A stretch of DNA of 64,000 bases from Fimbriimonadaceae bacterium (GTDB taxonomy: Bacteria > Armatimonadota > Fimbriimonadia > Fimbriimonadales > Fimbriimonadaceae), in NCBI GenBank assembly GCA_019638675.1, contig JAHBTE010000001.1, positions 2,016,605 through 2,080,604 on the forward strand. Reading direction: 5' to 3'. The position numbers and the translations under genes were made by a program. The notes below the pieces were generated by a model. That model saw only the letters and a list, made by a program, of their open reading frames with translations. It was not told the DNA's origin and made no database searches. How positions within the stretch are numbered: position 1 is the first letter of the stretch; every line of letters starts with the position of its first letter. Positions 1 through 14,054 of the stretch are shown piece by piece.

Positions 1-1648
1 AGACCAAATCTATCTCTGATTGGAGTGGCAACTCCGCGACTTGCTCTCCGATGCCAAACGCCATGGCTTGCCGTTGACCAGCATCGGTTTCTAGAGTTAA
101 ACGAGCATGGATCGGATTTCTGGTAGGCGTGCAAGCGGCTAGCCGAACACCCGTTGAAACAAAAATCGGCTCCGGGTTTGCTTCGCCGAACGGCTCCAAA
201 GTCGCCAGGTGCTGAGCTAGTTCAAGTGATGAATCTGCGAGGTCAAGTTCTTGGTCAATGTTGAGGGTTGGCAGGAAGTCTTCGGGTTTTAGCCTTTCAG
301 AAGCAAAGACGTCCATTGACTGTGCAAACTCCTCAAGATTTACGACATCTAAGGAAACGCCCGCCGCCGCCGCATGACCACCACCTTTAATGAGTAGCGA
401 ACGGTTTGCTTCGATTGCTTCAAACAGATTAAACGCAGGGAGTGATCGGGCTGAGCCAGAAGCAACATCGCCATGGATTCCGAGTACAAAAGCGGGGCGA
501 CGGAATTTTTCGACCACTTTGCCCGCTACGATTCCAACGAGGCCCTTCTGCCAGTTTTCTCCGGCGACGACAATCGCAGATTTTTGATCAAGGCCATCTG
601 CCAATATTTTCGCGAACGTCTCTTCCATGAGTGCATCTTGGAGTTCGCGCCGCTCCGTATTTTTTTGATTCAAAAAGTTGGCGAGTTCGTACGATTCTCT
701 TGCGTCATCGGTCGTCAATAGTCGGAAAGCCACGTCGGCATCGTCAATCCTTCCCACTGCGTTGATCCGCGGGCCGAGTTGGAATCCAATGTGGCGGGTT
801 GTGAGTTTGGCAGTTGGATCGGCTAAGTTGCTGACTGTGAGGAGTGCTTGCACTCCGTGCTTTTGGCTTGCTTTGAGGGCTGTCAAGCCATGCCGCGCTA
901 TTATGCGGTTGTTGTCGCGCAAAGGCATCACGTCGGCGACTGTTCCCATTACGGCAAGGTCAAGAAAATGCCGATAAAAGACTTCCGGCTTGATGCCAAG
1001 TTCAGGCGCAAGTCCGGCGCAGAATAGGAATGCAATCCCTGCGCCGCTCATTTCGCTGGCTGGTCCGTCGTAATCCCGCCGCTTAGGGTTGACTACAGCT
1101 TCTGCCATGGGCAGAGTCTCCGGCGATTCGTGGTGGTCTGTCACGACCACTTTCATTCCTAGCTCGTATGCGGCTTCCAGTTGTTTATGACTGCTTGTGC
1201 CGCAGTCACAAGTCAATATAAGTTTCGCCCCCGATGCGTGGGCTCGCCGGATCGTATCAATATGGATGCCGTACCCTTCGTTTTCTCTGTGCGGAACATG
1301 ACCTTCTACTTCAAAGCCAGTCTTAGCAAGGAATCGGTAGAGAATCGCCGCGCTGGTAACGCCATCTACATCGTAGTCTCCGTGAATGTAGATTTTTTCG
1401 CTCCGTTCTTTAGCTCCTAGAATCGCTGCTTTGGCTTTTTCAAAGTCGGGTAACTCTTCTGGACGGCTGAATTGCGAAAGCGAAGGATTCAGAAATGTAT
1501 TTGCTTCGCTTGGGTCGGAATAGCCTCGCTGAACAAGTAATTTCGCGACAACCGGATGAAGGTTTAGCTCTGCAACTAGTTTCTGCGCCGCAAGCTCATC
1601 AGTTGGGCGCAAGTTCCAAATAGTGGGGTAGTCAGTTGCAAGAGCCAT
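1..1648 (-). CDS. recJ: Single-stranded-DNA-specific exonuclease RecJ (3' end cut by window edge)
   Basis: RecJ degrades single-stranded DNA 5' to 3' in recombination and mismatch or base-excision repair. Read on the minus strand from ATG at 1648, the frame stays open to the window edge (about 549 codons), so the C-terminus is missing. Visible motifs are the DHH-superfamily metal-binding segment GDYDVDG (residues 90-96) and VVTDHHE (DHH at 171-173), followed by a DHHA1-type region with a glycine-rich GGGHAAAAG segment. These are the expected RecJ motifs in the expected order. It lies 61 bases downstream of the trkA-like pair on the same strand and is probably the last or near-last gene of the operon that begins with the sigma factor at 7727. 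Confidence 0.93.
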   Translation of the reverse strand, partial: MALATDYPTIWNLRPTDELAAQKLVAELNLHPVVAKLLVQRGYSDPSEANTFLNPSLSQFSRPEELPDFEKAKAAILGAKERSEKIYIHGDYDVDGVTSAAILYRFLAKTGFEVEGHVPHRENEGYGIHIDTIRRAHASGAKLILTCDCGTSSHKQLEAAYELGMKVVVTDHHESPETLPMAEAVVNPKRRDYDGPASEMSGAGIAFLFCAGLAPELGIKPEVFYRHFLDLAVMGTVADVMPLRDNNRIIARHGLTALKASQKHGVQALLTVSNLADPTAKLTTRHIGFQLGPRINAVGRIDDADVAFRLLTTDDARESYELANFLNQKNTERRELQDALMEETFAKILADGLDQKSAIVVAGENWQKGLVGIVAGKVVEKFRRPAFVLGIHGDVASGSARSLPAFNLFEAIEANRSLLIKGGGHAAAAGVSLDVVNLEEFAQSMDVFASERLKPEDFLPTLNIDQELDLADSSLELAQHLATLEPFGEANPEPIFVSTGVRLAACTPTRNPIHARLTLETDAGQRQAMAFGIGEQVAELPLQSEIDLV

Positions 1649-1709
1649 TGGCTAAGTATGGACGTGAAGTGAGTTGAGGGAGTCTCGCGAACTCCCCAAA
1701 CTTTTCCAA

Positions 1710-2381
1710 TCAGCTCACGTCGGCAAAAACCGTGCGGAGTTCTTCGGCTCGTGCGGTTGGAACCATTGCAACAACCATATCGCCTGGTTGGAATTCTGTG
1801 TCTCCATTCACTTGCTGGCCAGTTCCGCCTCGGAAGATGTAAACGATGAACGAGCCTTGCGGGAGAGTGATATCACGCACAGCTTGACCGATCAATGGTG
1901 ACTTTTCGCTGAGAAGGCTTTCGACGACTTCCACATGACCACGGTGAAGGTGACCGATTGGAATAAGTTCATCGCTGGCGATTTGCTGGTCAATCAGGCT
2001 AAAGATAATCCCGGTCGAAGAAACCGTGTCGTCAATGCCAATTTCTCGGAAAATTTCCTCGTGCGATGGATCATTAACACGGGCGACTACCCGTTTTACA
2101 TCCCAAACTTCTTTGGCTAATTGGCAACAAATTAGATTGTCTTCGTCTTCACCCGTTACCGAAACAACAATGTCAGCGCGTTTGAATCCTGCTTCTTTTT
2201 GAATGAGGATGTCGCAACCGTCGCCGTAGAGAATATGTTGGTCGCCGATCAGGTTGCCAAGCTTTTGAGCTTGGCGGACATCTTTTTCAAGTACAAGGAC
2301 TTCATTGTTTCGTGCAATCAGCCGCTTTGCGAGTTGGATTCCAACGTTTCCGCCGCCAACGATAATGATGTACATGCTCAT
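1710..2381 (-). CDS. TrkA-family potassium uptake regulator (RCK_N + RCK_C)
   Basis: Cytoplasmic nucleotide-binding gating subunit of a Trk/Ktr potassium system. The N-terminal Rossmann fold has the dinucleotide motif IVGGGNVG (residues 7-14) with an acidic residue ending the second strand (VLEKD). The C-terminal part from about residue 140 resembles an RCK_C ligand domain ending in the typical 'PGDMVVAMVP' segment. At 223 residues it is a normal KtrA/TrkA length. Its ATG overlaps the stop of the preceding TrkA_N gene by four bases, so the two are coupled as in CeoB/CeoC-type tandem pairs. No membrane pore subunit (TrkH/KtrB) lies in this window, so the partner channel is elsewhere. Confidence 0.88.
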   Translation of the reverse strand: MSMYIIIVGGGNVGIQLAKRLIARNNEVLVLEKDVRQAQKLGNLIGDQHILYGDGCDILIQKEAGFKRADIVVSVTGEDEDNLICCQLAKEVWDVKRVVARVNDPSHEEIFREIGIDDTVSSTGIIFSLIDQQIASDELIPIGHLHRGHVEVVESLLSEKSPLIGQAVRDITLPQGSFIVYIFRGGTGQQVNGDTEFQPGDMVVAMVPTARAEELRTVFADVS

Positions 2382-2830
2382 ACTTCGATCTCCATAGCGT
2401 TGACGTTATAGGTGTCAACTGGCTGGAATTCGGCGTTGAGGAGCCAGTCGCGGCACATTCCAGATATAAGAGCGGCGGCGTTGATTGTGAACAAACCAAG
2501 GCGGCGATACGCTTCTGAGCGGAGAGGGTCGGCTACTTTCACTGCAACTCGCTCAACCTTAAAGTTCCGCTTAACGATCTGGGCCGCCATTAAATTTGTG
2601 TTATCTCCACGAGTCATCGCAAAAAATGCGTCGCAATTGGCGACATCGGCGCGCTCCAAGGTATCGAGATCAAGTCCGTTGCCGAGAACAATTCGGCACG
2701 GATATGATTTGCCAAGGCGGCGTAAAGACTCTGGACTCCGCTCGATTACGGTCACAGTGTGACCGAGAGAGGAGAGTTGGACGGCTAGGGAAGCTCCCGA
2801 GCGTCCGCAACCCAAAATGACAACCTTCAT
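2378..2830 (-). CDS. TrkA-N domain protein, partner of the downstream TrkA
   Basis: A 150-residue protein consisting essentially of one NAD-binding TrkA_N domain: the motif GCGRSG at residues 7-12, an acidic residue at the end of strand two (VIERS), and the conserved 'ADVANCDAFFAMTRGDNTNLMAA'-type region in the second half. It lacks an evident RCK_C domain, unlike its neighbour at 1710-2381, with which it shares a 4-base ATGA overlap. It starts 19 bases after glnD ends. By family knowledge such tandem proteins gate a potassium channel in response to nucleotides; here that is inference from domain content and pairing. Confidence 0.85.
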   Translation of the reverse strand: MKVVILGCGRSGASLAVQLSSLGHTVTVIERSPESLRRLGKSYPCRIVLGNGLDLDTLERADVANCDAFFAMTRGDNTNLMAAQIVKRNFKVERVAVKVADPLRSEAYRRLGLFTINAAALISGMCRDWLLNAEFQPVDTYNVNAMEIEV

Positions 2831-2849: not shown

Positions 2850-5213
2850 CTACTCGTGATGGAATGCCCGCCGCAGTTGGTTGGAATCAATAGGCCGTCC
2901 TTCTGGGTCGTAAACGTAAAATCCGGCAGAAGCTGTTCCGGCCCATTGCCCTAATCTGGCACTCAGAATGTTTAGCCCCTGTTTGTGGATGACCTGGCAT
3001 AAGCGATAGGCAAGTCCTCTCCCTTTGGGAGCCCGGACTTCGATAATCGTTGGGTTTTGTGAGGAAACGTCTATCGTTAAAAATTGCTGTCGTCGGTTCG
3101 GGTCTTTGCCCATAGAGGTCATGAGGTCGGAGCGCGAAGTTTCGCCGCTGAGAACGGCTCTAAGTGAACGTTCTACTCTGCGTTGAAGTTCAAGCGAAAG
3201 GGGAGCATCCGAACGAGAAATCAAGAACGTATCGAGAATTGTTCCTGGTTCTTGTTCACTTGTTGAACATCGCAGGCTTTGCAGACTGAGGTTATGGGCG
3301 TAGAGCGTCCCGAGAATATCGGGCAGTATCCCGCTCCGGTCGGGCATTGAAATCGTGAGCTCGGTTAACTGCATATCCCGGTGGTTTTGAAATTGCAGAA
3401 CGATTTCACCTTTCCTGGCAACTTGGTAAAGGGCATGGTGCCTTAGTACGATTTCCTCGGGAGTGCTGAGCAAATAATGCGTCGGCATCACTTCAAGGAA
3501 TTCTGCGATTGTGTCGCTACTTTCATCAGTTGGCTCAACTGAGCGGAGAATTCTTTGAACTGTTTCCTGTTCGGTTGGTTCGCTGGTATCTGGGTTCAAA
3601 AGGTAAGCCGTGCGTTCAAATAGACTCAAAAGATAGGTTTCTTGAACGGGGCTCCAAATTTGGCTGTTAACGGCATTGATGTCCGCGTAAGTTAAGAGCG
3701 TCAGGGCGGACAAGCGATCAACGGTACCGACGATTTTTGAGAACTCCAAAACTGTGTCCGGGTGGTCAATATCCCGCACACGAATGAATTGGGCCATTGT
3801 GAGATGCTCCCGAACGAGCCAAGCTACGTCACTAATCAACGTGTGGTCTAGAGACCAACGCTTGCCTATCTGGTGGACTAATTTTTCTCCCACTTCGCTG
3901 TGCGGGGCTCCCGGAATGGCCTTGCCAAGATCGTGAAAAAGAATTGCTAATTTGAGAACCGAAGAATCGGGAAGGCTCTCATATATTCGCGCGAAAGGGC
4001 TGGTAAACGGAATTTCTTCCAGAAACCTTAATGCTTGTAACGTGTGCTCATAGACGGTGTACTTATGCGAGGCATCGCCGGGCATCAGGGTTCGGCACTC
4101 GCTGAGTTCAGGAAGAACGGCTTTAAGGACGCCGGAGCGTTCCAGATTACGTACGGTTTCTATGCCAGCGGTCAGAGGGATGATAATTTCTGGGCCAGCC
4201 TTCTTATTGACTGGGGCAGGATCGGTTGGTATCGTAAGACCGATCTTGGTTGCTTGCCCAATCGCTAGTGCCGCCTGACCTCCCGGCGAGCCAGGTTGAA
4301 TCCGAATCTCTCCCCGAATAGCTTGCGCGTACTTACCAAGGTCATATCGGTTTTCTTGAAGTCGGTTCAGCCCGTGATGGTAGTTTTCGTGGACGGAATC
4401 GAGCGCCCTGGCAACTCGCGAACCTAGAGTAAATGAAGTGACTTTCAGGATTCCAGCGATCTCTTCACGGCGGGCATAATTGAGTTCGTCATGATGGTTT
4501 CCGACAACTAAGTGAAGTAAATTCCGGATCATCAGAAGTTCTTCTACTGCCGGAGTGATCGGTTCAGGACGTTCGCCTAATGCTTGGCCGATCCAATTCA
4601 TGGCATGGAAATCTCGTAAGCCGCCCGCTCCGTTTTTGAGGTGAGGCTCAGTTACAAGTGGAGTTGTATTCGATTGTGCAGTTTCTTGTTGCCTCTCTTG
4701 GAGCTTGGCGAGTAGAAATTCAGCAGTTGGAAAATCGATCCATATGTTTTCTTGCAATTTTTGAAAAGGCGATGATGAGCCAGCGACGAGCCGCGCATCT
4801 AAAAGATTGCTGAGGTTGACGCTATCCAGACCAGGAATATCGGTGATCAGTCGGTTGACGTAAGCAACGCGAATACCAAGGCCTTTTCCAAACGAATCGT
4901 GGGCCGCGTTAAAAAGCCAACGAACGGCATTGTTTAGTCGTGGATCTTCACGCATTGGCACAAATGCTACGTCTACGTCGCTCCAAGGGGCCATTTCTCG
5001 GCGTCCATATCCGCCAGTTGCGACTATGGAAAGTGGAGGTAAGTCATCAAACTTGGACTGTGCTTCTGCAAGGAGGACTCGCCAGACGTTATCAAGAAGC
5101 TCTGTATGGGCCAAACACAATTTGTAACCAGAAGGCTTTTTGCGAAGCCGTTTCAAAAGGTTTTCACGATCTGCTTTTGCTTTCGAAACGATTTTTTGGA
5201 GATCGCGGCTCAT
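2850..5213 (-). CDS. glnD: GlnD-like [protein-PII] uridylyltransferase/uridylyl-removing enzyme
   Basis: Bifunctional nitrogen sensor that uridylylates and de-uridylylates PII signal protein according to glutamine level. Domains in order: nucleotidyltransferase with GGYGRREMAPWSDVDV (residues 67-82, metal-binding aspartates D79 and D81); a GlnE/GlnD helical region with the 'KNGAGGLRD' signature; an HD phosphohydrolase domain (histidine of EHT near 389, FHDLGK near 427); then two ACT domains, the first with 'MPDRSGILPDI' near 620 and the second from about 718 to the end. At 787 residues it is shorter than the enterobacterial enzyme (about 890) but has all domains. Its ATG overlaps the stop of the membrane protein upstream by four bases, coupling it to a sigma/anti-sigma pair. 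No PII gene is present in the window. Confidence 0.9.
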   Translation of the reverse strand: MSRDLQKIVSKAKADRENLLKRLRKKPSGYKLCLAHTELLDNVWRVLLAEAQSKFDDLPPLSIVATGGYGRREMAPWSDVDVAFVPMREDPRLNNAVRWLFNAAHDSFGKGLGIRVAYVNRLITDIPGLDSVNLSNLLDARLVAGSSSPFQKLQENIWIDFPTAEFLLAKLQERQQETAQSNTTPLVTEPHLKNGAGGLRDFHAMNWIGQALGERPEPITPAVEELLMIRNLLHLVVGNHHDELNYARREEIAGILKVTSFTLGSRVARALDSVHENYHHGLNRLQENRYDLGKYAQAIRGEIRIQPGSPGGQAALAIGQATKIGLTIPTDPAPVNKKAGPEIIIPLTAGIETVRNLERSGVLKAVLPELSECRTLMPGDASHKYTVYEHTLQALRFLEEIPFTSPFARIYESLPDSSVLKLAILFHDLGKAIPGAPHSEVGEKLVHQIGKRWSLDHTLISDVAWLVREHLTMAQFIRVRDIDHPDTVLEFSKIVGTVDRLSALTLLTYADINAVNSQIWSPVQETYLLSLFERTAYLLNPDTSEPTEQETVQRILRSVEPTDESSDTIAEFLEVMPTHYLLSTPEEIVLRHHALYQVARKGEIVLQFQNHRDMQLTELTISMPDRSGILPDILGTLYAHNLSLQSLRCSTSEQEPGTILDTFLISRSDAPLSLELQRRVERSLRAVLSGETSRSDLMTSMGKDPNRRQQFLTIDVSSQNPTIIEVRAPKGRGLAYRLCQVIHKQGLNILSARLGQWAGTASAGFYVYDPEGRPIDSNQLRRAFHHE

Positions 5214-6739
5214 CTGTTTAGATAGTAGGCTGTTTCGTTCAAAGAGATCATGCGAAGTTCCGTGTGAATTTTATGATCCCACATTATGCAGACCGGAGTG
5301 AGGATGACACTGCAGAAAAAACATCCCAGAGCGGCGACGGCTAAAGATGTCTTTGAAATATGCAGGATAAATTTCCCGGCTGATCTTCTCAGACGGTAAG
5401 CAATGACTTGGGCAAGAAACAGATATGTTCCGATTAATGCTAACAAAGCGTAAAAGACAGTCGATTGAACATCTTGCCACCAGCCGTCTGGTAAAGCAGA
5501 GATTAGACTTTGAAATGGAGTCGAGCTTGCAGTTGCGCCTGCGCAGACGACTGCAGCGGCCAAAACTCCAAAAGAGAAGCATAGGGCTTTGATTGCTGGA
5601 GTGGCTTTTGCAGGCGAGGAGTTAAGGGCAATTGGTGGTCGCAGGGCAAACAATGCCAACACTAGAAACACCCAGAAAGCTGGAAGTAATAGCTGAGTGA
5701 TTAAGTAAGTGCTTAACCCAATCCCGAATGCTAGAGTTAGCGGAACTGCTAATGGCCATGGCTTAGAGGGTTGCTCAGAGCGAAAAAGGATTAGTATTCC
5801 AAGCAAAATTCCTGCAATTGAGCCTGTTAAAGCCAACGAACCGGGCAGTGAGGCGGAGAGTGCGGCCTGGCCAGTTAGTTTCGCAAGATTAGTAGCTGTT
5901 GTCGGTGAAAACACAAGTGCTGCATATGCATCGTTTTCCTTCAGTGCCCTCACTGCTATTTGTGAATCTGTATCCGATTTGTCGCGTAGCAGATCCAAAG
6001 GAAACTGCATTTTGGTTGCAGTTATTTCTCTGCGTTTGAGAATCGAACTCTGAGAGCCAGTTGCAGCAATTTCCATCAAGTTATGCCCATACTTGGCGGC
6101 CTGTCTACTCTTAGAACCATCCCTGAGTAATAGTCCGTTTTCAAAAGTGGCCCATCGCGAATCTAGCGATGAATTCGCGTCAATCATGCTACTGCCAAGC
6201 GAGTAAATCATACGAGGGCCATCAATAGAGATGAGCTGGTATGCCACAGCGGGATGCCATGCCATTTCAGAGCCACTTTCTTCAGTCATACGATCCAGGA
6301 ATTTTTGAAGCCTGTTTGATTGGTAGTCGTTCCAATCAGTACGCGATGATGCGCGTAGCCAAGCCTTGTCAACGGCTTCTTTATTGCGAAGCGCGTGTTG
6401 GAAGACAGCCTCGCATTGCCGCCAATACGCATTCTGTGGCTCCTTTTCGGCGGCCATGCGGACTAACTCAGTAAGAAGTAGAAGATTATCGCGGCTGAGT
6501 GGTTCAGCATGCGCGATCTTGTTGCAAGCTACTTGAGTCCAAAGCGAAAGTTCCTCCTCACTTTGAGGCTGAGGCAGAGATTCAAGAGTTCCCGCCAGTA
6601 AAGGCGATGATTCCACGGTGGGGGAAGGGCCGAATCGCCATAAGCCGAACTGTAACCAAGGTCGAGACAGAGGGTGAAATAGAAGTGCGATCGTTGCACC
6701 AACGATCGCACCAATAAATGCCCGCTGGGCGAAAGTCAT
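5210..6739 (-). CDS. Unknown multi-pass membrane protein with long extracytoplasmic N-terminal domain
   Basis: No family recognised. The 509-residue protein starts with one hydrophobic segment (residues about 6-22). A largely hydrophilic region of about 250 residues follows, rich in Trp, Arg and Glu with short helix-like stretches. The C-terminal half holds several strong hydrophobic segments (around 290-315, 330-365, 385-405, 430-450 and 475-495), suggesting six or so membrane helices. It overlaps both neighbours by four bases: the anti-sigma candidate upstream (6736-6739) and glnD downstream (5210-5213). This tight coupling suggests it is part of the same regulon or signalling unit, possibly a membrane component controlled with the sigma factor. 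Function is not deducible from the sequence. Confidence 0.8.
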   Translation of the reverse strand: MTFAQRAFIGAIVGATIALLFHPLSRPWLQFGLWRFGPSPTVESSPLLAGTLESLPQPQSEEELSLWTQVACNKIAHAEPLSRDNLLLLTELVRMAAEKEPQNAYWRQCEAVFQHALRNKEAVDKAWLRASSRTDWNDYQSNRLQKFLDRMTEESGSEMAWHPAVAYQLISIDGPRMIYSLGSSMIDANSSLDSRWATFENGLLLRDGSKSRQAAKYGHNLMEIAATGSQSSILKRREITATKMQFPLDLLRDKSDTDSQIAVRALKENDAYAALVFSPTTATNLAKLTGQAALSASLPGSLALTGSIAGILLGILILFRSEQPSKPWPLAVPLTLAFGIGLSTYLITQLLLPAFWVFLVLALFALRPPIALNSSPAKATPAIKALCFSFGVLAAAVVCAGATASSTPFQSLISALPDGWWQDVQSTVFYALLALIGTYLFLAQVIAYRLRRSAGKFILHISKTSLAVAALGCFFCSVILTPVCIMWDHKIHTELRMISLNETAYYLNR

Positions 6740-7167
6740 CTCTGTGCAGGTTCTTCCAGATCAGGAATGTTGATTACTGAATGTCGTTCCAAAGAGGCTT
6801 CTGCTGCTTTGTTTTGAAACTGTGGCAGTACAGGTTTTTCGCTCATCATTTGTAGGATCGCAAGTAAGCCTATGCAAGCTGCCACTGCAGCAATCGCCGC
6901 AGGAGACCAGTACCCGAGTGATCTGCGGATATTGTCGGCTCGAACTCTTGCTTGCAGAGAGCTGTCAAAATTTGCACTTGCTGTAGGAACTTCGCCAAAA
7001 ATGAGATGTTCTATTGATTCGTGGTTGTCCAGCCATTCGTCCATCCACTCTGGGTTGGCTTCTAGCAAACCTTCAAACTCAGCTCGCTCAATATCGTTTG
7101 CCTGAACGTCCATCACAAGGTCAGCAAGTTCATTGAACCGCTCATGGGAGTGCATGTGTCCGCTCAT
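6736..7167 (-). CDS. Candidate anti-sigma factor, single membrane span
   Basis: A 143-residue protein encoded directly after an ECF sigma gene. I chose the ATG at 7167 because it overlaps the sigma stop by four bases (7164-7167) and has AAGGAG seven bases upstream; a longer in-frame start at 7197 would lie inside the sigma gene. The N-terminal part is acidic and helical, with a His-rich beginning (SGHMHSHERF) that could bind zinc, although the HxxxCxxC ZAS motif is absent. One transmembrane segment lies around residues 90-108, followed by a short extracytoplasmic tail. Position, size and topology fit a membrane anti-sigma factor; no recognised domain proves it. Confidence 0.7.
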   Translation of the reverse strand: MSGHMHSHERFNELADLVMDVQANDIERAEFEGLLEANPEWMDEWLDNHESIEHLIFGEVPTASANFDSSLQARVRADNIRRSLGYWSPAAIAAVAACIGLLAILQMMSEKPVLPQFQNKAAEASLERHSVINIPDLEEPAQR

Positions 7168-7727
7168 CGGAGTTCTCCTTCGTTGGCGGCAATCCAAACA
7201 GCACGGAATCGTTCTCGCGCGGCATGCAGTCGAGAACGCACAGTTCCGACAGGGATATTCAATTGTTCGGCAACTTCGTCGTAGCTCAACTGATCCATTT
7301 CTCGCAGTACCAGCGTTTCACGCTGTTCCTCCGTTAGATATTGTAGGAGTTCTTCGACGAGGATTTTAGTTTCAACTTCGCGGCCTGTGGTGCCGTCGCC
7401 TTGCTCAACGATTTCTGATGTTGGTTTTCTAGATCTAAGACGATCCATGCAGAGTCGAACGCAGATTCGATAGATATATCCAGAGTAAGCCCGGTCGTCG
7501 CGAAGCTTTTTGATTTCTCGGAAGGATTTAAGGAACGCTTCTTGGGCTACGTCTTCAGCTTCATGTCGATCACGGAGGAGATTTGCGGCAACTCGTATGA
7601 GTCGGTCGCGGTGTTTAGACACCAGGCAGTTCATGGCGACTTCATCGCCGTGGCGCAATCTGCCGACCCAATTCAGCTCATCGGCTTTCTGATCGGCCTT
7701 AACGTTTACTACCCATTCCTCTGACAT
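7164..7727 (-). CDS. ECF-family RNA polymerase sigma factor
   Basis: A 187-residue group 4 (extracytoplasmic function) sigma factor. Region 2 is visible as 'RDRHEAEDVAQEAFLKSFR' followed by the 'YIYRICVRLCMDRLR' stretch (core-RNAP and -10 recognition). Region 4 is the helix-turn-helix 'LSYDEVAEQLNIPVGTVRSR' that reads the -35 element. The ATG at 7727 has AAGGAG upstream at good spacing. It is the first gene of a run in which sigma, anti-sigma, membrane protein and glnD are each joined by 4-base overlaps, so it probably autoregulates this operon from the 106-base divergent spacer shared with the LptD-like gene. Confidence 0.93.
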   Translation of the reverse strand: MSEEWVVNVKADQKADELNWVGRLRHGDEVAMNCLVSKHRDRLIRVAANLLRDRHEAEDVAQEAFLKSFREIKKLRDDRAYSGYIYRICVRLCMDRLRSRKPTSEIVEQGDGTTGREVETKILVEELLQYLTEEQRETLVLREMDQLSYDEVAEQLNIPVGTVRSRLHAARERFRAVWIAANEGELR

Positions 7728-7833
7728 ACACCACTCCTTGACGGAAACTTAATTCTTTAGACACCTATTTTAATCCGAATCGTTCAATAATTGTTGCGAA
7801 AATTTCCGGAACGGTAGACTCGCAAGGTTCAAC

Positions 7834-9378
7834 ATGATTCCTGTCATCCCACCTTTCACGGCAAACCCGTCTTTTTCAACGCCGTCGGTGGAGGTTGTGG
7901 CGAAGCAGGAGTTCAAAGTTGATGAAACACTTACGATCGAAGCTCCCGAATGGTACGAGGATTTCGAGACTGGCGTTTTAACATTTGCGGGTGGCGTCCG
8001 GGCCACTTACGGCCCCACTGTAATCACCTGCGAAAAAATCCTTGTAGACAGATCAACAAAGACTTTTGAGACTTCCGGTACGACAAAAATCCTTGACCCG
8101 ATTGGCGTCATCAAGGCCGACTCACTAAAGGCCAGTTGGGCAGATGGTTCAAAGGGTGGAACTGCCTTCAACGTTTTCGTTGAAGTTGGATATGTGAAAA
8201 TCCAAGGCTCAGTTTTGACCATCGCGACCGAGCCGGAACAGGTTTGGACTTTGAGCGATGTCCGTTTTGAACTTTCCGATTTGGCTGCTGGTGGCAACCG
8301 ATTTCTTGCACGGACTCTCAGGCTTTACCCAGGTAAGTACGGTGTTGCCGAACACATCTTTTATCAGATTCTTGGTCAAAAGCTTGGGCCGATACCGCGG
8401 CAAAGTTTTAATTTTGACCGCCGGGTGAGCGGCCTAAAGATGCCAAGTATCACCAACCGTCGGGGGGTAGGAGTTGGGCTATCGTGGGACAGCAGTTTCT
8501 TGCTTAACGATCAGTCGAGCATTTACGCTTCCTGGGCGAGTTTTCCTGGTCAGTTGCAGGAGTACAAACTACAATACACAACTTCGCCTCTGCCCGGTGA
8601 ATTAGTAAAAACCAAAATAGCTCCAAAAGATAAGTTGGCAGAACCTCAGGGTGACGGTTGGTTCGACAACGTGATAGTTGCTTCTCCAGATAATGAGCGA
8701 AGTGCATTACGGAGTCCAAAAAACAGCTTTTCCGCCGGATTTGTTTGGAATACTTCAACAGTGGGGCGTGTTGAAGATGCAACCGGAGTCAGCAAACTCG
8801 TCGACCTGGCTTTTGAATATGGAGGCGCGGCAGGAAATGCTGGGTGGGTCGCAACGACTCGGGCGCAGAGAATCCGCGAAGGCGCCGGTGGAGAATGGAT
8901 AGATCGGGCGATCATGATTGGCACCTATTTGGCGCCTGATTATCTTGCAGGTGATCAACTGAGCAGCCATTTAAGAACAGATTTATTCGGCTCATTCAGT
9001 GAAAACGGAACATTTGGATATGCCCGAAACGAAATCGGTGTGATTTGGCATCCCAAACCAGGAATCAATATCGGGGCGGCGTACGCAGTTGGCGGACAAT
9101 CGGGGCGAGCAGACTTTACATTCGATAAGTTAGATTACACATCGGCAATGCTGTTGAGAGCTGATTATTCGGTTGGCCCTTACACAATCAGGTACTTAGC
9201 CAAATACGATTTTCGGGGTCAAACTTGGTACGACCGGGAATGGGAGTTGGCACTGGCGGCTGGTTCGCTTGAACCGTTTGTCCTCAGGCGGGAGTTTCCC
9301 AGTGACTATCGAATTGGCATCCGTTTCCGCATCGATCAGTTCACCAACCACTTGTTGGATAGGAAAGTAAAACGATAA
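7834..9378 (+). CDS. LptD/OstA-like outer-membrane protein
   Basis: Residues about 30-150 look like an OstA/LptA-type beta-jellyroll: repeated short strands such as 'GVLTFAGGVRATYGPTVITC', 'SGTTKILDPIGVIKADSL' and 'VEVGYVKIQGSVLTI'. The remainder alternates polar and aromatic residues with many strand-turn units, including a terminal strand 'YRIGIRFRIDQF', consistent with a beta-barrel. This domain order is that of LptD, which inserts lipopolysaccharide in the outer leaflet of the outer membrane, but at 514 residues it is shorter than typical LptD (about 750-800). Oddly no signal peptide is visible at the N-terminus, and no alternative in-frame start occurs before an upstream stop. AAGG lies six bases before the ATG. 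It is divergent from the sigma operon. Confidence 0.65.
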   Translation: MIPVIPPFTANPSFSTPSVEVVAKQEFKVDETLTIEAPEWYEDFETGVLTFAGGVRATYGPTVITCEKILVDRSTKTFETSGTTKILDPIGVIKADSLKASWADGSKGGTAFNVFVEVGYVKIQGSVLTIATEPEQVWTLSDVRFELSDLAAGGNRFLARTLRLYPGKYGVAEHIFYQILGQKLGPIPRQSFNFDRRVSGLKMPSITNRRGVGVGLSWDSSFLLNDQSSIYASWASFPGQLQEYKLQYTTSPLPGELVKTKIAPKDKLAEPQGDGWFDNVIVASPDNERSALRSPKNSFSAGFVWNTSTVGRVEDATGVSKLVDLAFEYGGAAGNAGWVATTRAQRIREGAGGEWIDRAIMIGTYLAPDYLAGDQLSSHLRTDLFGSFSENGTFGYARNEIGVIWHPKPGINIGAAYAVGGQSGRADFTFDKLDYTSAMLLRADYSVGPYTIRYLAKYDFRGQTWYDREWELALAAGSLEPFVLRREFPSDYRIGIRFRIDQFTNHLLDRKVKR

Positions 9379-13233: not shown

Positions 13234-13512
13234 TTACATCGGCAACTGGTACTGGCCAGGATGAGACTGGGCTTCCTCGAAGGAAATATCTGCGCCCATC
13301 GTTTGCATACGGAACAAGATGCGTAAGAAGTCGCGTTCATCAAACTCAGGTGCAGGATGCGCCTTGAGCAGATTGACAGTTTGAGTCAGGGTGGCCATAT
13401 CCGTGGCCAAGTTTTCATCGGTTGCTGCGGCGGATTCTAGGTCGAGCGCAAGTTCTTCTGGAAGTTCTTGCCCCGCGTAGAGGTCCACTAATTTTCGATA
13501 TAGATCATTCAT
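13234..13512 (-). CDS. Small acidic protein after ECF sigma (possible anti-sigma partner)
   Basis: A 92-residue acidic, mostly helical protein without a membrane segment or Cys/His zinc motif. It begins with the short helix MNDLYRKLVDLYAGQELPEE, resembling the N-terminal helix of some zinc-less anti-sigma domains. Its ATG overlaps the sigma stop by four bases (13509-13512), and on the same strand dnaN follows after 48 bases. The location suggests a soluble anti-sigma or accessory factor; this is inference only. Confidence 0.65.
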   Translation of the reverse strand: MNDLYRKLVDLYAGQELPEELALDLESAAATDENLATDMATLTQTVNLLKAHPAPEFDERDFLRILFRMQTMGADISFEEAQSHPGQYQLPM

Positions 13513-14054
13513 TTCAGCTTCTCCAATGAGCCGCCGAGTTTTTCACGCAAGGCTCTTCTCCCGCGATACAATCGCGATTTCAGAGCCGGGACGCTAATTC
13601 CCAGCGTATCTGCCGCTTCCTTGGCTGATATATCCTCTAAGTCGCAGAGAATGAGGGGTTCGCGGTAATCGAGGGGCAGTTCGTCCAAAGCTGCTTGGAC
13701 GGTAACCCGCAGAGCCGCGCGCTCTTCAGTTCCACTGTACGACCGTTCTCCCGAAATCTCTAGCAGTTTCGGCTGGCGCATCTTATCGATGCACAAGTTG
13801 CGTGCGATCCTGAACAACCATGTTTTGAAGGCTCCATCGGCTCGCAAATCGTTTGCGCGCCTCAAAACCCTCAAAAATGTTTCCGCAGTTGCGTCTTCCG
13901 CATCCGCACGATTGCCCAACATCCTGAATGTGTAACGGAAAATCTTTTCTCCGTACAACTTATACAACTCGCCCATCGCAGAAGCATCGCCCTTTGCAAG
14001 GGCGTTCAACCACCTTTTTTCAGCTAGTGAATCTTCACGAGGATTGCTCGACAT
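13509..14054 (-). CDS. ECF-family RNA polymerase sigma factor (second)
   Basis: A 181-residue ECF sigma. Region 2 is seen as 'LGNRADAEDATAETFLRVL' with 'FKTWLFRIARNLCIDKMR'; region 4 as 'LPLDYREPLILCDLEDIS' then the helix-turn-helix 'AKEAADTLGISVPALKSRLY'. It differs clearly from the sigma at 7164-7727 (for example LPLDYREP against LTEEQRET), so this is not a recent duplication. It is paired by a 4-base overlap with the small acidic protein downstream. Confidence 0.92.
   Translation of the reverse strand: MSSNPREDSLAEKRWLNALAKGDASAMGELYKLYGEKIFRYTFRMLGNRADAEDATAETFLRVLRRANDLRADGAFKTWLFRIARNLCIDKMRQPKLLEISGERSYSGTEERAALRVTVQAALDELPLDYREPLILCDLEDISAKEAADTLGISVPALKSRLYRGRRALREKLGGSLEKLK

Follow-up and report, generated by a model that had tools for sequence, protein, structure and literature searches.

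The window, the whole 64,000-nucleotide stretch analysed here, comes from a 2.85-Mb genome (G000) of the Fimbriimonadales, an order of Armatimonadota whose soil and water members have been little studied. It carries consecutive genes, all on the minus strand, for a sigma factor, an anti-sigma factor, a membrane protein (MP), GlnD, a pair of TrkA proteins and RecJ. Listed from the divergent neighbour onwards in the direction of transcription of the minus-strand genes, the features are:

7834-9378, plus strand: divergent neighbour, 514 aa, weakly LptA/LptD_N-like (LptD_N matches below cut-off in relatives)
7758-7786, minus strand: putative promoter of ECF type (TGAAC-N19-GTCTA), lying about 30-58 bases ahead of the sigma start codon
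7164-7727, minus strand: ECF sigma factor, 187 aa, regions 2 and 4 (Pfam Sigma70_r2, 1.4e-15; Sigma70_r4_2, 1e-16)
6736-7167, minus strand: predicted class I anti-sigma factor, 143 aa (profile of its relatives against RsiW, 5wuq_C)
5210-6739, minus strand: membrane protein MP, 509 aa (hydropathy, alignment and positive-inside counts; no Pfam family)
2850-5213, minus strand: glnD, predicted PII uridylyltransferase, 787 aa (Pfam GlnD_UR_UTase, HD, ACT)
2378-2830, minus strand: TrkA-N protein, 150 aa (Pfam TrkA_N, 2.9e-23)
1710-2381, minus strand: TrkA-N/TrkA-C protein, 223 aa (Pfam TrkA_N, 1.3e-28; TrkA_C, 1.3e-10)
1-1651, minus strand: recJ (DHH, DHHA1, RecJ_OB)

Reading the sequence directly, we found an ATGA overlap at each of the first three junctions: sigma/anti-sigma (...GGAGAACTCCGATGAGC...), anti-sigma/MP (...AGAGATGACT...) and MP/glnD (...AACAGATGAGC...). 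A fourth ATGA overlap in the window joins trkA1 to trkA2. Both coordinates and junctions agree with the sequence-only reading, which had described four genes joined by 4-base stop/start overlaps and followed by two TrkA proteins and recJ. The conserved start of the anti-sigma gene is the ATG at 7167; a mechanical list of open reading frames had given a TTG at 7197. Because a 19-base gap separates glnD from trkA1, the TrkA pair is joined less tightly, and recJ starts roughly 60 bases beyond the pair. recJ lies downstream at seven loci, all of the window's genus, and is probably not part of the module.

The first gene encodes a protein with the hallmarks of an ECF sigma factor: its 187 residues contain only sigma-70 regions 2 and 4 (Pfam r2 and r4_2), and gene order and sequence place next to it an anti-sigma gene and a putative autoregulatory promoter motif, GAAC-N19-GTC. 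Its NCBIfam matches to SigW/RpoE-like models were below the cut-offs. The second product, earlier put forward as an anti-sigma candidate, gave weak NCBIfam matches on its own; a profile of 34 relatives matched the anti-sigma domain of Bacillus subtilis RsiW (5wuq_C, E 7.8e-9), in favour of that proposal. Hydropathy places a single transmembrane segment near residues 90-108, followed by a short extracytoplasmic tail. A zf-HC2 domain was found in 5 relatives and the zinc motif HxxxCxxC in 27 of 48; the motif is absent from the window protein and its genus. This is compatible with class membership, as the Hx3Cx2C motif occurs in about 56% of class I anti-sigma factors and zinc-less members are common (PMC7406223). 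Domain match and topology together mark the protein as a predicted RsiW/RseA/ChrR-related class I anti-sigma factor, with inhibition of the sigma factor its putative role.

Across 48 relatives, MP has an N-terminal transmembrane segment, a helical extracytoplasmic domain of about 275 aa, six further transmembrane segments and a C-terminal tail, as judged by hydropathy. The tail is conserved in the alignment and carries the motif NExxYYL. Positive-inside charge counts fit an N-in orientation with the domain and C-terminal tail outside, and the near-invariant residues (including N103, W106, W136, R195, N201, R206, D488, N501 and E502) lie mostly on this predicted outer side, in the extracytoplasmic domain and the tail. 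The nearest named record, Fimbriimonadaceae bacterium ACE_ARM8, which guided the placement in the order, has an MP 86% identical to that of the window. Searches of Pfam, NCBIfam and PDB returned zero significant matches, among them none to the known anti-sigma sensor partners PrsW, DegS and RseB. Identification of MP as a PrsW-like protease, channel or receptor was rejected on the lack of a family match, and an AF2 model built from two sequences (pLDDT 36) was unusable.

A profile search recovered distant MP relatives across the phylum, some of them again behind an ECF sigma gene and a gene for a small protein (G071, the G057 and G037 paralogs, G171 and G157) and others standing alone. MP is therefore a recurrent but non-exclusive partner of ECF sigma factors. 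The suggestion that the membrane protein forms a third part of the ECF module gained ground, since it stands behind the sigma and anti-sigma genes in families f1, f2 and f4 and its paralogs are similarly placed; from this gene order we infer a tie between MP and the anti-sigma factor. Together the distant relatives make up what may be a new family of sensors in Armatimonadota, found repeatedly downstream of ECF sigma genes. They measure 545-730 aa at L203, L206, L208, L212, L213, L215, L217 and L219, and are partly arranged in tandem, with three in a row in L208.

Gene order was surveyed in 113 Fimbriimonadales genomes, in which single-sequence searches located GlnD in 86 and MP in 74. Both genes are present in 63 genomes, a count made by hand from the search tables with two further MP genes added; they are adjacent on one contig in 61, and in the other two the locus is cut by a contig end. 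Adjacency of MP and glnD is thus found wherever both share one contig, in about 61 genomes representing 28 genera of families f1 and f2. We compared 60 neighbourhoods, plus additional ones from both f1 and f2, and sigma and anti-sigma genes lay upstream of MP in every f1, f2 or f4 locus read, bar one cut by a contig end; the genes flanking the four-gene block differ between loci. Among f1 and f2 loci, a -4 overlap was available at the sigma/anti-sigma junction in 36 of 51, at anti-sigma/MP in 34 of 50 and at MP/glnD in 32 of 39; most of the MP sequences there are 20-45% identical to the window protein. The overlaps are kept more than expected by chance.

None of the sigma, anti-sigma or MP genes was found beside glnD in 19 glnD loci of another Armatimonadota class, and in family f3 of the same order glnD is located elsewhere. 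Exceptions also occur within f1, where G075 and G077 have glnD and the TrkA pair without sigma, anti-sigma or MP genes, and where MP is missing from the G023 locus, which does have the sigma, anti-sigma and glnD genes. As the order is kept in f1 and f2 amid variable flanks, and the sister class and f3 are unlinked, the ECF-glnD linkage is real, old and lineage-specific. The worry that the order might not be conserved in relatives is thereby removed, and the 19 sister-class loci agree with the earlier remark that GlnD is not usually tied to an ECF system. A search of open-access papers turned up no ECF-glnD link.

Of 51 loci, 29 carry the motif GAAC-N19-GTC ahead of the sigma gene, against a mean of 0.78 and a maximum of 3 in shuffled sequences, and no GAAC/GTC peak occurred at any other spacing in these 51 loci. 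Even a search with loose spacing did not reveal the promoter motif in 16 of the 51, most of family f2 among them; some f2 loci show GAAC-N19-GAC instead. The exact pattern TGAAC-N19-GTCTA, a scan that would miss weaker sites, finds the sigma operon in six of eight genomes of the genus and at most two sites per genome elsewhere, fewer in total than the reversed-pattern control. Because off-operon sites do not exceed the control, the sigma operon itself is the clearest target and autoregulation is best supported. GAAC-N19-GTC would, judging from its position and sequence, act as an autoregulatory ECF promoter.

Conserved order need not mean shared regulation, as gene order can simply be inherited: glnD might have joined the operon once in the f1/f2 ancestor and be transcribed from constitutive housekeeping promoters, with the ECF system adding little to GlnD level. 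In an E. coli study of envelope stress, glnD was stable enough to be used for normalisation (PMC2731931), which fits this neutral history, and a constitutive promoter may lie upstream of or inside the MP gene, which is 1.5 kb long. We nevertheless regard a frozen neutral operon as unlikely, as the overlaps and order persist although MP has diverged as far as about 20% identity and the flanks are heavily reshuffled. An internal promoter before glnD, which would make that gene independent and which the sequence-only reading had named as evidence against itself, was rejected: sigma-70-like sites are at chance level there, and in the single close pair that we compared, synonymous-site conservation shows no dip where MP ends.

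Signals for translation are less telling. The anti-sigma gene has a clear ribosome-binding sequence in 94% of loci, and MP and glnD mostly lack a strong one; the control genes dnaN and OstA-like lack it as well. Since free-standing control genes often have no such site either, the argument from ribosome sites for translational coupling is weakened. At the start of the MP gene (6684-6712, minus strand) lies a terminator-like structure, a perfect hairpin of 13 bp followed by a T-rich tail; it was dropped from consideration, being confined to the window genome and its nearest relative and absent at the other loci checked.

The window GlnD contains the Pfam domains GlnD_UR_UTase, HD and one ACT, with a second C-terminal ACT as a weak ACT-like match, and carries the motifs GGYGRxE...SDxD and HDxGK; its TIGR01693 score of 345 bits, against a cut-off of 519, makes it a divergent member. 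PII is present in all 86 GlnD-positive genomes and absent from 15 of the 27 lacking GlnD, and GlnE occurs in 83 of 86 versus 5 of 27, those five being incomplete genomes. Absence of GlnD is associated with that of PII and GlnE (Fisher 1e-11 and 1e-15, respectively, values that are descriptive because the genomes are related). Mapped on a tree of sigma and MP, glnD has switched state six times or more; where independent pairs are compared, PII changes in step with it 4:0 (p 0.125, too few for significance). The window genome's PII carries the T-loop tyrosine (RGSTY), and the GlnD-positive genomes examined keep it, except for one extra PII copy in G082. In all six PII-positive, GlnD-negative genomes checked (G019, G020, G025, G027, G032 and G033) the tyrosine is gone. 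These six PII proteins (L221 and L245-L249) come from one genus, and five of the six genomes also lack the KimA-like permease described below. Domains, motifs and co-loss mark the glnD product, by prediction, as a genuine PII uridylyltransferase. As in the GlnD-PII-GlnE cascade of Proteobacteria and Actinobacteria, all three genes co-occur and the PII tyrosine is kept where GlnD is present; in contrast to that cascade, glnD is here embedded in an ECF operon (f1 and f2).

Losses of glnD bear on the direction of control. The sigma, anti-sigma and MP genes are retained at 11 loci that have no glnD, nine of which belong to PII-less genomes, and in most of the 11 MP is directly followed by the TrkA pair. 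Because sigma, anti-sigma and MP, with or without TrkA, outlive the loss of glnD, the latter is an output rather than part of the core, and because the module persists without glnD and without PII, glnD is not needed as an input. We conclude that the ECF module is self-contained and carries glnD as a conserved passenger or output, outside its sensing core. The lineages also provide a natural experiment, in which loss of GlnD and GlnE accompanies loss of PII or of its modified tyrosine and the ECF core can stay. Nitrogen status could conversely be the input, with GlnD or PII acting on MP or the anti-sigma factor to free the sigma factor; a shared operon of conserved order and the glutamine-binding-type ACT domains of GlnD would suit such a scheme. 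The 11 loci just described and the mostly extracytoplasmic placement of the conserved MP residues make it improbable.

The proposal that potassium gating is co-expressed with the sigma factor fared less well. The TrkA pair follows a gap and is missing from many loci that retain glnD, and TrkH occurs in 12 of 113 genomes (the window genome has one TrkH, elsewhere). The TrkA pair and the potassium link are optional to the ECF module. An APC-type KimA-like permease, present in 102 of 113 genomes (for example, L290:803-2743, minus strand), is likely the main potassium importer and may be the transporter that the TrkA pair serves; KUP, considered as the partner of the pair, gave weak matches only, and it was these that led to the APC-type permease. 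Alternatively, the TrkA pair could gate MP, which would then be an effector or a transporter and not the sensor of the anti-sigma factor, in an operon devoted mainly to ion homeostasis; this would suit the position of the pair directly after MP in most glnD-less loci and the lack of TrkH in the majority of genomes that carry the pair. However, many genomes keep MP without the TrkA pair, distant MP paralogs stand behind ECF sigma genes without TrkA, MP has zero channel-family matches and the KimA-like permease is a more ordinary TrkA partner. We consider this role for MP very improbable, slightly more so than nitrogen input.

The operon resembles B. subtilis SigW/RsiW and E. coli RpoE/RseA, in which an autoregulated ECF sigma gene is likewise followed by one for a single-pass class I anti-sigma factor and the promoter has a GAAC-type -35 element. 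It differs from them in its third gene, whose product is unrelated and combines seven TMs with a large domain on the extracytoplasmic side, and in running on into glnD, which to our knowledge is in neither of those operons. GlnD is commonly regarded as a nitrogen sensor that is produced constitutively; the f1/f2 arrangement predicts a GlnD level that tracks a surface signal, and suggests a tie between surface sensing and nitrogen sensing in Fimbriimonadales.

Our preferred reading, to which we assign a probability of about 0.6, is an autoregulated surface-sensing ECF operon with GlnD as a built-in output. MP would sense a surface signal and control the single-pass anti-sigma factor, which would release the ECF sigma factor; the freed sigma factor would transcribe its own operon from GAAC-N19-GTC, so that sigma, anti-sigma, MP and GlnD levels would rise together, with GlnD translation presumably coupled to that of MP through the ATGA overlap. 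GlnD, if it behaves as its family does, would set PII uridylylation and, via PII and GlnE, glutamine synthetase activity. The state of the surface would thereby adjust the gain of nitrogen sensing, and the TrkA pair would add a potassium output in lineages retaining it. A broader version is more tentative, and we give it less than even odds: that this is a phylum-specific ECF class in which a new 7-TM extracytoplasmic sensor controls the anti-sigma factor, the operon itself is the principal target, and a surface signal sets GlnD amount and nitrogen gain, with TrkA adding potassium control.

A response to the envelope is plausible from the predicted topology and from the weakly LptD_N-like neighbour. 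This 514-aa protein gave LptD_N matches in two of six relatives (E 0.007-0.008, below cut-off), and its gene is kept divergent to the sigma gene across most of family f1; a link between LPS transport and the ECF system via this LptD_N/LptA-like protein is possible. In E. coli, the kdsC-lptCAB-rpoN-hpf-ptsN-yhbJ-npr operon belongs to the sigma-E regulon, is induced by sigma-E and joins LPS export with RpoN and PtsN (PMC2731931), and PtsN binds TrkA (PMC13104625). It sets a precedent in that one sigma-E-induced operon brings envelope stress together with regulators of nitrogen and the control of potassium, but contains PTS-Ntr genes and not GlnD/PII, and its sigma factor is encoded outside the operon. 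The likeness is one of analogy between unrelated genes, not homology.

The window contains a second ECF sigma gene (13509-14054, minus strand), which shares 4 bases with a 92-aa gene (13234-13512) that probably encodes its anti-sigma factor. The pair lies just upstream of dnaN and is kept in several members of the genus.
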